In this document: piece by piece, positions 9,097-12,544 of the stretch
Position numbering within the stretch: the first letter of the stretch is position 1
How the letters are laid out: the number at the start of each line of letters is the position of its first letter
Origin: Dactylosporangium sp. AC04546
GTDB lineage: Bacteria; Actinomycetota; Actinomycetes; Mycobacteriales; Micromonosporaceae
Assembly (NCBI RefSeq): GCF_022095675.1
Contig: NZ_JAHYSG010000163.1
Span: 1-21,123, forward strand
Direction of reading: 5' to 3'
DNA: 21,123 bases
Notes under the pieces: generated by a model
Told to the model about the DNA's origin: nothing
Databases searched by the model: none
What the model saw: only the letters and a program-made list of their open reading frames with translations
Position numbers and translations under genes: made by a program

Positions 9097-9930
9097 CTAA
9101 AGGAGGGTCACCACGCGCAATGCCTGCGTCACCGTGGCGGCCATCTCGTCGCGCGCCGGGCGCAGGTACTTGCGCGGATCGACCGAGGTCTGCGTCGCGA
9201 GCTCGCGCCGGACCGCACCGGTGAACGCGATGTTCAGCGCCGTGCCGATGTTGATCTTCACGATTCCTTTGGTGACCGCCGTGCGCAGTTCGTCGTCGCT
9301 CACCCCGGACGAACCGTGCAGCACGAGCGGTACCGGCGTCGTTTCGCGCAGCTTGGCGATGAGCGAATGGTCGAGGCGCGCGTCGCGGGTCGTCATCGCG
9401 TGCGAAGAACCGACTGCGACGGCGAGCGCGTCGACGCCGGTCGCGGCGACGTACGCCGCCGCCTCGCCGGGGTCGGTGCGCACCCCCGGCGCGTGCGCGC
9501 CGTCCTTGCCGCCGACCTCGCCGAGTTCGCTCTCGATCCAGAGCCCCTGTGCGTGTCCGCGTTTCGCCGCCGCGGCGGTCGCGGCGACGTTGCCGGCATA
9601 GTCGAGCTTCGACGCGTCGTACATCGCCGAGCCGAACCCGTTGGCCGCCGCCTGGTCGAACAGCTCGTCGCTCTCGACGTGGTCGAGGTGCAGGCCCACC
9701 CGCACCGACGACAGTTCGGCGACGCAGCGGGCGGCGGCGGCGATCGGCGCGAGCCGCCCGTCGTGGAACCGCACGGCGTTCTCACTGATCTGGAGGATCA
9801 CGGCGCACCCGGCGGCCTCGGCCCCGCTCACGATGGCCTCGGCGTGCTCGACGGTGATGACGTTGAAGGCGCCGACGCCGACACCCCGGCGCTGCGCGTC
9901 GGCGACGATCTCACCGGTGGGGCTGAACAT
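9097..9930 (-). CDS. Class II aldolase, tagatose/fructose-bisphosphate type
   Basis: A 277-residue zinc aldolase of the GatY/KbaY/FbaA family, splitting a ketohexose bisphosphate into glyceraldehyde-3-phosphate and dihydroxyacetone phosphate. Visible motifs: GVGAFNVITVE near the start, HLDH (81-84, catalytic Asp83 and zinc-binding His84), ESELGEVGGKDG (133-144), His177 (GSSHA), His205 (LHGSSG) and the phosphate-binding NIGTALNIAF (227-236). Length is typical. The ATG at 9930 has AAGGAG 9 nt upstream. It overlaps the end of the PfkB kinase gene by 20 nt in another frame, so the two are coupled. Substrate (tagatose- or fructose-1,6-bisphosphate) cannot be settled from sequence alone; the SIS and GH4 neighbours favour tagatose. 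Confidence 0.88.
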   Translation of the reverse strand: MFSPTGEIVADAQRRGVGVGAFNVITVEHAEAIVSGAEAAGCAVILQISENAVRFHDGRLAPIAAAARCVAELSSVRVGLHLDHVESDELFDQAAANGFGSAMYDASKLDYAGNVAATAAAAKRGHAQGLWIESELGEVGGKDGAHAPGVRTDPGEAAAYVAATGVDALAVAVGSSHAMTTRDARLDHSLIAKLRETTPVPLVLHGSSGVSDDELRTAVTKGIVKINIGTALNIAFTGAVRRELATQTSVDPRKYLRPARDEMAATVTQALRVVTLL

Positions 9931-11080
9931 CTGCTTGCACTCCTTGCATGGTTCTGCGGAAGGTTTGGTACTGCGTGAGGTCGATCTCGCCCGCCACCGG
10001 CGCGACGACAGCGGCCGCGGCGAGCGCTGCGGCGTCGGCGAGCACGGCGGGCCAGGTTGTTCCGCCCCTTCGGTTGCCGGGCCGGTCTTCGGCGGGATTG
10101 TGTTCGCGGGGGCCGTCGCGGCGGTTGTCTTCACCGACGTGGCGGTAGTCCTCACCGACGTGGCGGCTGTGCTCACCGACGTGGCGGCTGCGCTCACCGA
10201 CGTGGTGGTTGTCCGCGCCGTCGCGGTCGTTGTCCTCACCTGCGCGGTCGTTGTTGAGTGCGGCCCGTGTCCTGTCGTCCTGGCCGGCGCCGTTGTTGAG
10301 CGCGGACGGTGTCCGGTCGTCCTGGCCGACGCCGTTGCGCAGGCCGCGGGCGAGGGCGGCGACGCAGGCGTCCCCGGCGCCGGTGGGGTTGCCGGTGACG
10401 ACGGCGGGCGGCGGCATGCGCCAGGTGCCGTCCGCGGTGTGCGCGTGCAGCCCGCGGTGGCCGAGCGAAACGACAACGGCGCGCACTCCGGCCGCGATGG
10501 CGTCGGTGGGGTGCTGCCCGAGCGCGGCCAGTTCGTGTTCGTTTGGCTTCACGATGTCCGGCGCGGCCCCGACACCGTGGCGCAGCGGCTCGCCGCTGGT
10601 GTCGAGGATCGTTGGCACACCCTGCGCGCGGGCCGCGCGCACCAGGACGGCGTACGCGTCGGGCGGAAGGCCCTGCGGCAGCGACCCGGACAGTACGACC
10701 GCGTCCGCCTCGGGCAGGAGCACCGCGAAGTGGTCGAGGAACGCGGCCCACTCCGCCCCGGTGACCGTGGGTCCGGGCTCCCACAGCCCGGTCGCGTCGG
10801 TGGCGTCGACGATCGTCACCGTGCGGCGGCTGTCGCCGGCGATCGGCACGAACGCGGCGGGAAAGCGGACGAGCGCCTCGATGTGCGCGCCGGTCGGCCC
10901 GCCGAGCAGGCCGGTCGCGAGCACCGGCTCGCCGAGCGCGTGCAGGACGCTCGCGACGTTGAGCCCCTTGCCGCCGGGCCGCTCGGCGACCGTCCGCACC
11001 CGGTTGGTGGCCTGCGGGACGAGCGCGTCGACGGTGTACGTGAGGTCGAGCGCGGGATTCAGCGTCACCGTGACGATCAT
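9911..11080 (-). CDS. 1-phosphofructokinase/tagatose-6-P kinase-like PfkB enzyme with repeat insertion
   Basis: A 389-residue PfkB kinase of the FruK/LacC branch, expected to phosphorylate a ketohexose phosphate to the bisphosphate used by the adjoining aldolase. It has NPALDLTY (8-15), the sugar-binding ERPGGKGLNVASV (33-45), SGSLPQG (131-137), KPNEHEL (178-184) and the catalytic NPTGAGDACV (231-240, base Asp237). The family is usually about 300-310 residues. The excess is a hydrophilic stretch at about 249-342 made of 14- and 7-residue repeats; the fold resumes at WPAVLADAAALAAAAV (343-358) and ends TQYQTF as in normal members. The insertion is in frame, so the enzyme may be intact. The start at 11080 has a weak ribosome site. 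Paired AAACGAGC sites lie upstream. Confidence 0.85.
   Translation of the reverse strand: MIVTVTLNPALDLTYTVDALVPQATNRVRTVAERPGGKGLNVASVLHALGEPVLATGLLGGPTGAHIEALVRFPAAFVPIAGDSRRTVTIVDATDATGLWEPGPTVTGAEWAAFLDHFAVLLPEADAVVLSGSLPQGLPPDAYAVLVRAARAQGVPTILDTSGEPLRHGVGAAPDIVKPNEHELAALGQHPTDAIAAGVRAVVVSLGHRGLHAHTADGTWRMPPPAVVTGNPTGAGDACVAALARGLRNGVGQDDRTPSALNNGAGQDDRTRAALNNDRAGEDNDRDGADNHHVGERSRHVGEHSRHVGEDYRHVGEDNRRDGPREHNPAEDRPGNRRGGTTWPAVLADAAALAAAAVVAPVAGEIDLTQYQTFRRTMQGVQADVQPHR
10130..10213 (-). repeat. Four 21-bp tandem copies inside the first PfkB gene
   Basis: Copies at 10130-10150, 10151-10171, 10172-10192 and 10193-10213 share the plus-strand core CTCACCGACGTGG. On the coding strand they read as four 7-residue units (HVGERSR, HVGEHSR, HVGEDYR, HVGEDNR; about residues 293-320). 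The unit length is a multiple of three, so the frame is kept. Confidence 0.93.
10249..10332 (-). repeat. Two 42-bp tandem copies inside the first PfkB gene
   Basis: Copies at 10249-10290 and 10291-10332 differ at a few bases. They encode two 14-residue units of the form NGxGQDDRTxxALN (about residues 249-276). They abut the 21-bp repeats through a degenerate stretch (10214-10248), and together they form the insertion in the PfkB fold. Confidence 0.92.
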
Positions 11081-11088
11081 TCTGAGAT

Positions 11089-11153
11089 GCTCGTTTCTGC
11101 GCGAATGGCGCTCTTACGAACGCAAAGCGACTGCTGATACTGTCCAAACGAGC
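11089..11153 (-). promoter_or_regulatory. Paired AAACGAGC sites before the first PfkB gene
   Basis: GCTCGTTT (11089-11096) and AAACGAGC (11146-11153) are perfect inverted 8-mers 49 bp apart in the leader of the kinase-aldolase pair. The same half-site occurs before the SIS and DeoR/GH4 genes, pointing to the local DeoR regulator. GAGCGCTC (11150-11157), a LacI-type core, overlaps the distal half-site. A possible minus-strand -35 (TTGGAC) lies at 11140-11145, but I could not match it to a convincing -10. Confidence 0.5.
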
Positions 11154-11168
11154 GCTCATGGATCAGTC

Positions 11169-11266
11169 TTGATGCATCAAGCTTGATGTATATGGGGTGA
11201 TGCATCAGCGCTGATGTATTGGTTCGGCTGCATTGGGCGTGATGCATCAGCTTTGATGCATCGAAA
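11169..11266 (+). repeat. Seven-copy 14-bp operator-like array (GATGCATC core)
   Basis: The divergent spacer between the two PfkB genes holds seven head-to-tail 14-mers with no gaps: TTGATGCATCAAGC (11169), TTGATGTATATGGG (11183), GTGATGCATCAGCG (11197), CTGATGTATTGGTT (11211), CGGCTGCATTGGGC (11225), GTGATGCATCAGCT (11239) and TTGATGCATCGAAA (11253). The centres fall exactly 14 bp apart (11174, 11188, 11202, 11216, 11230, 11244, 11258). Copies 1, 3, 6 and 7 contain the full palindrome GATGCATC; copies 2 and 4 have GATGTAT; copy 5 is worn. The array is far more AT-rich than its surroundings and ends 10 bp before the ribosome site (GGAGG) of the second kinase. A multi-site operator or promoter is the likely role. 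Confidence 0.93.
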
Positions 11267-11287
11267 GTGACGTGGTGGAGGCGAGTC

Positions 11288-12544
11288 GTGCGGTTCGACG
11301 TGCTGGTGGTCGGTGACGCCAACCCGGATCTGGTGCTGCGGGGCGACGTACGGCCGCGGTTCGGGCAGGAGGAGCAGCTGCTGTCGGCGGCCGACCTGGT
11401 GCTCGGCGGTTCGGCCGCGATCACGGCGGCGGGGTGTGCGCGGCTCGGGTTGCGTACCGCGCTGCTCACCGTCACCGGGCCCGACATCTTCGGTGCGTAC
11501 GTGCGCGAACGGCTGGCCGAGCGGGGCGTCGAGGTGCTCCAGCCCGCGCCGAGCGACACGCCGACGGGGTTGAGCGTGATCCTGTCCGCGCCGGACGACC
11601 GGTCGATCCTGACGCTGCCTGGCACCATCCCGGCGCTGCGGCCGGCCGATGTGACCGACGAACTGCTCGCCTCTGCGCGGCACGTGCACGTGGCGTCGGT
11701 GTTCCTGCAACCGGAGCTGCTCGAAGGCCTGGCGGGTGTGTTCGCGCGGGCTCGCGCGCTTGGGTTGACGACGTCGCTGGACACGAACTGGGACCCGGAA
11801 GGCCGCTGGGACCGGGTGGGGCCGGTGCTCGGTTCGACGGATGTGTTCCTGCCGAACACTGCGGAGCTGCTCGCGGTGGCCGGCGGTCTCCTCCCAGGCG
11901 CAACGGAACTGCCCGCGGTGGCCGGGGACGACACCGTTGAGCAGGCGACCGCGCGGCTGGCGGCCAGCGGCGACACGGTCGAGCAGGCGGCGGCGCGGCT
12001 GGTCGCCGGCGGTACGACGGTGGTGCTCAAGGACGGCGCCCGCGGTGGCCGCGCCTGGTGGCCGGGCGGCGAGTGCGCGGCTCCCGGGCTCCCAGTCGAC
12101 GTGGTCGACACGACCGGGGCGGGGGACAGCTTCAACGCGGGCTTCCTGGCCGCTCGCCTCCGCGGCCCCGCAGGAGTGGGAGCCGCAGAAGCCGCCGCAG
12201 CCCAGATCGCCGCGCGGGAAAGTGCGGCCGCAAGTGAAAACGGGGCCGTGAGCGAAAACGGGGCCGTGAGCGAAAACGGGGCCGTGAGCGAAAACGGGGC
12301 CGTGAGCGAAAACGGGGCTGGGCGCGAAAACGGGGCTGAGAGCGGGAACGGGGCTGGGCGCGGGAATGACGTGACGGCCGCGAGCGGGAACGGCGCGGGC
12401 GCGAGCGGTGCGGCCAACTGGGGCGGGACCGACCTTCCAACCGCCGTGGCCTGGGCCGCGGCGGCCGGGTCGTTGAGCACCCGGGCGGCCGGGGGTACGG
12501 CCGCCCAGGCGACAGTCGAGGAGATCATCCTTTCAGTCCGCTGA
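11288..12544 (+). CDS. Ribokinase-like PfkB sugar kinase with repeat insertions
   Basis: A 418-residue carbohydrate kinase of the ribokinase branch (usual length about 300). Motifs: VVGDANPDLVL (7-17), LGGSAAITAAGCARLG (39-54), LDTNWDP (164-170), LPNTAELLAV (188-197) and the catalytic DTTGAGDSFNAGFLAARL (274-291, base Asp280). It may phosphorylate the incoming or hydrolysed sugar before the SIS step. Two regions are expanded. Residues 193-242 hold a duplicated ELLAVAGG/ELPAVAGD segment and a 14-residue tandem DTVEQA unit; residues about 292-380 hold at least seven 6-residue AVSENG-type units in the loop after the GAGD helix. The fold then resumes (LPTAVAWAAAAGSLSTRAAGG). The GTG at 11288 follows GGAGG by 6 nt. 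Its end overlaps the convergent permease by 20 nt. Confidence 0.83.
   Translation: MRFDVLVVGDANPDLVLRGDVRPRFGQEEQLLSAADLVLGGSAAITAAGCARLGLRTALLTVTGPDIFGAYVRERLAERGVEVLQPAPSDTPTGLSVILSAPDDRSILTLPGTIPALRPADVTDELLASARHVHVASVFLQPELLEGLAGVFARARALGLTTSLDTNWDPEGRWDRVGPVLGSTDVFLPNTAELLAVAGGLLPGATELPAVAGDDTVEQATARLAASGDTVEQAAARLVAGGTTVVLKDGARGGRAWWPGGECAAPGLPVDVVDTTGAGDSFNAGFLAARLRGPAGVGAAEAAAAQIAARESAAASENGAVSENGAVSENGAVSENGAVSENGAGRENGAESGNGAGRGNDVTAASGNGAGASGAANWGGTDLPTAVAWAAAAGSLSTRAAGGTAAQATVEEIILSVR
11864..12013 (+). repeat. Two successive 42-bp in-frame duplications in the second PfkB gene
   Basis: Segments 11864-11905 and 11906-11947 begin with related 14-residue units (ELLAVAGG..., ELPAVAGD...). 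Segments 11930-11971 and 11972-12013 are a clearer pair (DTVEQATARLAASG and DTVEQAAARLVAGG). Ordinary family members have one copy of the AELLAV...DTVEQAAARLVAGG stretch, so this part of the fold has been lengthened by about 28 residues. Confidence 0.8.
12227..12370 (+). repeat. Eight 18-bp tandem units inside the second PfkB gene
   Basis: Units start every 18 bp from 12227. Those at 12245, 12263, 12281 and 12299 are identical (GCCGTGAGCGAAAACGGG, Ala-Val-Ser-Glu-Asn-Gly); the others are variants, and the last is degenerate. GAA and AAC-rich codons stand out from the GC-rich neighbours. A further worn copy follows near 12377. Perfect central copies with decayed edges suggest recent slippage expansion. 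Confidence 0.95.

Follow-up and report, generated by a model that had tools for sequence, protein, structure and literature searches.

Conserved enzymes of Plasmodium carry low-complexity, disordered insertions in their loops. The two bacterial sugar kinases described here resemble these enzymes, as far as the description goes, in having loop insertions that are predicted to be disordered, and differ from them in that the Plasmodium examples are eukaryotic and AT-rich. Kinases of the PfkB/ribokinase type, such as LacC, FruK and YdjH, have the same fold, the same GAGD motif and the same overall length outside the inserts; compared with them, our kinases 1 and 2 have an additional 90 and 87 residues, respectively, after the GAGD helix. 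Inserts in homologues from Actinoplanes, Dactylosporangium and relatives are likewise in-frame, low-complexity and variable, but they occupy a different site, loop A. Prokaryotic coding satellites, in the part of PMC6749651 that deals with them, have periods that are multiples of three, encode amino-acid repeats, and are in many cases unique and scattered over the genome. The kinase arrays share the in-frame period and the amino-acid repeats with these satellites. Unlike the satellites described in that part of the paper, they interrupt a compact enzyme at a length-locked loop, in two adjacent paralogues and in one clade. Searches of the open-licence literature listed nothing about repeats in Dactylosporangium kinases or about the 14-bp-pitch satellite described below. 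The locus provides a natural experiment on enzyme-loop expansion, with two paralogues, the same loop, several sequences and near relatives without the insert, and it makes testable whether a functional requirement fixes the length of this loop in nearly all homologues or whether mutations have simply been lacking there.

Two divergent PfkB kinases in a sugar cluster

The window, by which we mean the whole stretch of DNA analysed, comprises 21,123 bases and is one of the 348 contigs of a 13.02-Mb assembly. Protein matches place it in Dactylosporangium, and the nearest named homologues of the kinases among the matches listed are those of Dactylosporangium sp. NPDC005572 and D. sucinum. The genes and motifs that concern us are as follows.

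9097..9930, minus strand: class II fructose/tagatose-bisphosphate aldolase (ORF and profile match)
9911..11080, minus strand: kinase 1, PfkB sugar kinase (TIGR03168 hexose kinase), 389 residues (profile match and structure match)
10370..10381, minus strand: GAGD of kinase 1, residues 234-237
11288..12544, plus strand: kinase 2, PfkB/ribokinase-type sugar kinase, 418 residues (profile match and structure match)
12116..12127, plus strand: GAGD of kinase 2, residues 277-280

Against the PfkB carbohydrate kinase profile PF00294 (curated cut-off, 25.8 bits), kinase 1 scored 129.4 bits and kinase 2 117.3 bits. The GAGD motif and a predicted ribokinase fold are present in both, and both AlphaFold2 models match solved structures of the ribokinase family over almost the entire core. 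Kinase 1 exceeded the cut-off of the hexose kinase model TIGR03168 (259.6 versus 216.4 bits) and remained below the curated cut-off of the LacC model TIGR01231 (tagatose-6-phosphate kinase; 181.7 versus 409.55 bits); the solved structures nearest to its predicted structure are LacC tagatose-6-phosphate kinases. The two kinase genes are divergently transcribed. The first 20 bp of the aldolase gene are also the last 20 bp of kinase 1 (window 9911-9930), which suggests translational coupling of the two. Past kinase 2 lie genes for ABC-type permeases, a solute-binding protein, an SIS-domain protein, a GH4 alpha-galactosidase-type enzyme and a DeoR-type regulator, the permease and DeoR names being assigned by inspection. 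The sugar cluster with both kinases is present also in D. sucinum, D. vinaceum and others, and probably serves a galactoside or amino-sugar pathway via tagatose phosphates.

Unrelated in-frame repeats lie in the same loop of both kinases

We call loop B the loop that joins the helix after the catalytic GAGD to the Ala-rich helix that follows. Both kinases carry a repeat-bearing insert in it.

10061..10333, minus strand: loop-B insert of kinase 1, residues 250-340, 91 residues between flanks that we set; +90 versus the family
10113..10240, minus strand: 21-bp array of 6.1 copies in kinase 1, 7-residue unit HVGExxR, four clear copies; TRF score 144
10249..10337, minus strand: 42-bp array of 2.1 copies in kinase 1, 14-residue unit NGxGQDDRTxxALN; TRF score 143
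12167..12421, plus strand: loop-B insert of kinase 2, residues 294-378, 85 residues between flanks that we set; +87 versus the family
12236..12354, plus strand: 18-bp array of 6.6 copies in kinase 2, 6-residue unit AVSENG, four identical DNA copies; TRF score 189

Alignment with homologues gave an extra loop-B length of 90 residues for kinase 1 (119 others) and 87 for kinase 2 (120 others). In the automatic alignments, the insert starts 12 residues past the GAGD aspartate in kinase 1 and 11 residues past it in kinase 2, where the gap placement is ambiguous by a few residues; for the coordinates, the start was set at 12 and 13 residues past the aspartate, respectively. The predicted structures (mean pLDDT, 84.1 for kinase 1 and 78.8 for kinase 2) agree with this position. 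In the kinase 1 model, a helix at residues 235-248 is followed by the insert and then by a helix at 343-359. In the kinase 2 model (417-residue numbering), the GAGD helix spans residues 277-318 and is thus predicted to extend into the insert, up to residue 318; the next helix, at 382-395, is preceded by a four-residue turn. The pLDDT falls below 50 at residues 262-266, 280-332 and 334-336 of kinase 1 and at 328-371 of kinase 2, and the loop-B inserts are predicted to be disordered.

According to TRF and the open reading frames, all array periods in the kinases are multiples of three and lie inside the open frame. The units follow one another head to tail and in frame, and their number or content varies between species, as expected of coding minisatellites. 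The inserts of kinases 1 and 2 of the window are unrelated, 195 of 300 shuffles scoring as high as the actual alignment, and gene conversion between the kinases was rejected as their source on this comparison. In D. sucinum, just 6 of 300 shuffles scored as high between the two inserts, a signal that we read as shared low complexity. These results agree with the initial annotation, which had given the protein lengths, the coordinates and the GAGD positions correctly, had described the 14- and 7-residue units of kinase 1 and the 6-residue unit of kinase 2 that TRF detects as 42-, 21- and 18-bp arrays, and had stated that the units are unrelated, keep the frame and lie at the same structural site. 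Copies within arrays differ mainly at amino-acid-changing codons (4 versus 1, 9 versus 3 and 3 versus 2), although these numbers are small. GC3 is lower in the inserts than in the cores (0.84 versus 0.92 and 0.75 versus 0.89; in D. sucinum kinase 1, 0.65 versus 0.93).

Loop B is opened in one clade

Of the homologues listed, 120 for kinase 1 and 121 for kinase 2 with the window's own counted, three in each family have a loop-B insert of at least 10 residues. In both families these belong to the same three species, namely the window species, Dactylosporangium sp. NPDC005572 and D. sucinum, which form one clade. One kinase 2 homologue (P0169) has 14 residues three core columns away from the loop-B insert site. 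The loop-B spacing is 26 or 27 in 112 of the 116 measurable kinase 1 homologues listed, with one further homologue at 33, perhaps through pattern fallback, and 25 in 111 of the 121 kinase 2 homologues listed, with seven more at +3 to +14. In a second set of kinase 1 loci (the best 80 of at least 555), a tryptophan stands at a fixed distance from GAGD in 80 of 80; these loci are mostly from Streptomyces, their species overlap partly with those of the first set, and one of them (L167) has an extra, earlier tryptophan.

To these counts we add a comparison of 27 genomes with both kinases (54 loop-B cells, two of them not measurable; the pairing was inferred in eight of the 27). Outside the clade, in the other 24 genomes, loop B was never longer than +9 residues. 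NPDC005572 is sister to the window species in the 27-genome tree (support, 0.88), and the stem of the three-species clade accounts for 0.212 of the total tree length of 6.59. This fraction, 3.2%, is the chance that a second opening falls on the same stem if each family had one randomly placed opening. The shared stem is mild evidence for coupling between the kinases, suggestive rather than strong for a coincidence noted post hoc. Of the 20 PfkB matches in the window's own genome, all but L020, and so 19, were inspected downstream of the motif; the 17 paralogues besides kinases 1 and 2 showed no repeat there by eye, three of them (L010, L013 and L002) being somewhat longer after the motif.

Elsewhere in the fold, repeats are found in loop A, which lies after the KPN/PN..EL helix and before the strand VVLKDG. 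Kinase 2 of the window carries an array here that the initial annotation had overlooked.

11929..12012, plus strand: 42-bp array of 2 copies in loop A of kinase 2, 14-residue unit twice; TRF score 119

This array adds about 28 residues, and kinase 2 of NPDC005572 has three of the 14-residue units. At loop A, 27 of the 120 kinase 1 homologues listed carry an insert of at least 20 residues, as do 8 of the 121 listed for kinase 2, the three kinase 2 proteins of the clade being among the 8; an alternative measure gave 22 of 119 and 9 of 121 homologues listed. Examples in kinase 1 are the proteins of D. darangshiense, Actinoplanes friuliensis and D. vinaceum. Judged from the sequences compared, loop A is the usual repeat site in both kinase families. 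A third site, near residue 90, holds 28-58 residues in 3 of the 121 kinase 2 homologues listed.

Inserts turn over on constrained cores

The kinase 1 cores of the three species are 90-96% identical (window and NPDC005572, 286/298; window and D. sucinum, 270/298; NPDC005572 and D. sucinum, 269/298). Protein alignments of the kinase 1 inserts were equalled or beaten by 216 of 300 shuffles for the window and NPDC005572, 32 of 300 for the window and D. sucinum, and 275 of 300 for NPDC005572 and D. sucinum. The window and D. sucinum pair comes closest to a signal; in its DNA, 86 of 300 shuffles scored as high. A single homologous kinase 1 insert across the three species finds no support in the sequence. 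Despite this turnover, the length of the kinase 1 insert stays at 59-91 residues across the three species. The insert has 20 acidic residues in the window, 19 in D. sucinum and 8 in NPDC005572; its basic residues number 15, 15 and 2, respectively.

In kinase 2, the window and D. sucinum can be seen to share the first part of the insert (1 of 300 shuffles scoring as high), but not the AVSENG array. Kinase 2 of NPDC005572 has only 17 residues at loop B; another count gives 85 residues for the window, 66 for D. sucinum and 15 for NPDC005572. On the tree, the short loop of NPDC005572 would represent a loss.

Between the window and D. sucinum, omega of the core is 0.24 for kinase 1 and 0.11 for kinase 2. 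Nine neighbouring genes are 87-97% identical between the two, with omega of 0.07-0.31, and the kinase cores fall within this range. By these substitution patterns, the kinase cores are under purifying selection. In four relatives (L081-L084), alignment lengths indicate no insert of at least 20 residues in the aligned parts of the cluster neighbour genes; the kinases do carry such inserts in several of these relatives.

Coding arrays elsewhere in the genome

In a 400-kb sample of the window's own genome, 288 genes were called, of which 5 carry an array of score at least 100, in each case with a period that is a multiple of three; outside genes in the same 400 kb, this held for 6 of 10 arrays. 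Genes were called here, and for the palindrome flanks described below, with a simple caller of our own. The rate of 5 in 288 genes indicates that such arrays are uncommon but not unique, and, if independence is assumed, it leads to an expectation of about 2.8 adjacent gene pairs genome-wide in which both genes carry arrays. With this expectation, and with a shared stem of 3.2% of the tree length, the earlier statement that the two inserts are hard to ascribe to chance alone proves too strong. The accompanying idea that the loop tolerates expansion in this strain stands as far as tolerance is concerned, but the property is that of a three-species clade and not of one strain.

A raised repeat density in the window's own genome was considered and rejected: arrays of score at least 100 number 38 per Mb in this genome, 50 in D. 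sucinum and 48 in D. vinaceum (400 kb each). Samples of 200 kb each from further genomes gave 25 (G004), 155 (G009), 15 (G016) and 50 (G048) per Mb; the density in G009, which is of another genus, is 3-6 times that of the four Dactylosporangium samples (25-50). The coding arrays in the 400-kb sample of the window's own genome include the following two. One, at 16477-16547 of L171, is an in-frame insert of GEH units in a protein that by inspection is PLP-enzyme-like. The other, at 11081-11407 of L172, is an in-frame 27-bp array of 12 copies, a repeat that accounts for about 110 residues of a 435-residue protein.

Origin of the inserts

We consider it likely that both inserts, as in-frame coding minisatellites in a surface loop, gain and lose length nearly neutrally. 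Such minisatellites would arise across much of the genome, originating and changing length by replication slippage or unequal recombination, and would survive mainly in frame; in the kinases, which are presumably needed, only in-frame changes would survive. Each kinase would have undergone one ancestral opening that was passed to the three species and has been rewritten since. The disordered string would be close to neutral and would persist where the fold lets it loop out. The common position of the inserts would then follow from the fold that both kinases have, in which few loops are permissive, together with one ancestral opening per gene. This neutral account requires no function of the inserts; it leaves unaccounted for the opening of a length-locked loop in both neighbours of one lineage. 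It also sits uneasily with two further points: a merely tolerant loop should be invaded more often, and the kinase 1 inserts keep 59-91 residues, so that length could matter.

These difficulties bear on a second explanation, in which the inserts were co-selected for a coupled function, for example bringing both kinases together with the aldolase whose gene overlaps that of kinase 1, or tuning ATP access at loop B, which we take to be the loop before the nucleotide-side helix. The opening of both normally length-locked loops in one clade and at most +9 residues in the other 24 genomes, the shortness of the clade stem and the adjacency of the two genes in one sugar cluster that recurs in D. sucinum, D. 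vinaceum and others speak for such coupling. We nevertheless regard it as unlikely, since neither sequence nor charge nor length of the inserts is conserved across the three species and the two inserts of the window are mutually unrelated. A version in which the presence of the strings matters and their letters do not, so that paired disordered strings act as coordinated spacers or adhesive tails organising the sugar-phosphate pathway, is in our view rather improbable.

Seeding of both inserts by a mobile or dispersed DNA element is very improbable. The genome does contain a dispersed repeat, one array of which lies between the kinases, but this 14-bp-pitch array is absent at the D. sucinum locus, which has both inserts, and the insert arrays themselves are not dispersed. 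A search of the whole genome with the kinase 2 array returned a single match, itself, and the kinase 1 array matched itself and two short stretches of 86 and 27 bases (E values, 1.2e-4 and 1.5e-3); no full second copy of either array is present in the genome. A protein search with the kinase 1 insert likewise gave one match among 370 candidates, within the lengths covered, which was the insert itself. A dispersed origin of the inserts was rejected on these searches.

Decay of the kinases under relaxed constraint, with junk accumulating in them, could be read from the large inserts in both, which have no counterpart in the aligned parts of the neighbour genes; it is highly unlikely in view of the core omega values, the open frames and the intact GAGD motifs. 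An assembly artefact, which the initial annotation had named among the findings that would overturn its reading and which a 348-contig assembly might raise, is scarcely credible, as inserts at these loops recur in two other species, the arrays of 89-128 bp should fit within ordinary read length, and kinase 1 recurs letter for letter on a 13,083,175-base contig that cannot be the window's 21-kb contig. This last argument applies to kinase 1. The window's kinase 2 is not among the 120 protein-database matches listed, so that its copy number rests on one assembly, and the 13.08-Mb contig may carry a different kinase 2 copy number or annotation. The nearly neutral coding minisatellite is the explanation that we prefer.

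A dispersed palindrome array between the kinases

The region between the two kinase genes contains a repeat of another kind.

11156-11263: array of a 10-bp palindrome (consensus TGATGCATCA), 8 units at an exact 14-bp pitch with varying 4-bp spacers

The palindrome array occurs also at no fewer than 23 further places in the same genome. A two-unit pattern with four free bases between the units gave 21 exact matches in the genome and 83 with at most 2 mismatches, and a reversed-pattern control gave 0 in both cases. In 20 fetched stretches (L312-L331), 48 of the 49 distances of at most 84 bp between copies are multiples of 14. None of the 60 related genomes that were searched for exact copies, which include six of Dactylosporangium, contained the two-unit pattern. 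Eight fetched stretches of relatives contain no palindrome copy within 1 mismatch; three of these stretches (L081, L082 and L083) have the same divergent kinase junction. The exact palindrome pair was absent from viral contigs, and a BLAST search with the array found no match in plasmids.

With the window's included, 18 of 21 palindrome sites lie outside called genes. The flanking genes are convergent at 6 sites, tandem at 10 and divergent at 2, with a contig edge at the remaining 3, and these mixed orientations make a plain promoter operator a poor fit. The fixed pitch with free spacers suggests binding of a protein in register, and the arrays may be binding sites or a satellite specific to this species. 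In prokaryotes, satellites that are both dispersed and non-coding are reported to be rare, according to the part of PMC6749651 that treats them, and for this reason the palindrome array may matter more than the kinase inserts.

The window contains one further tandem repeat, an 18-bp array of 4 copies at 2134-2205, which begins at the end of the ORF at 1288-2151; its unit includes the stop codon TGA, so that the array extends beyond the gene.
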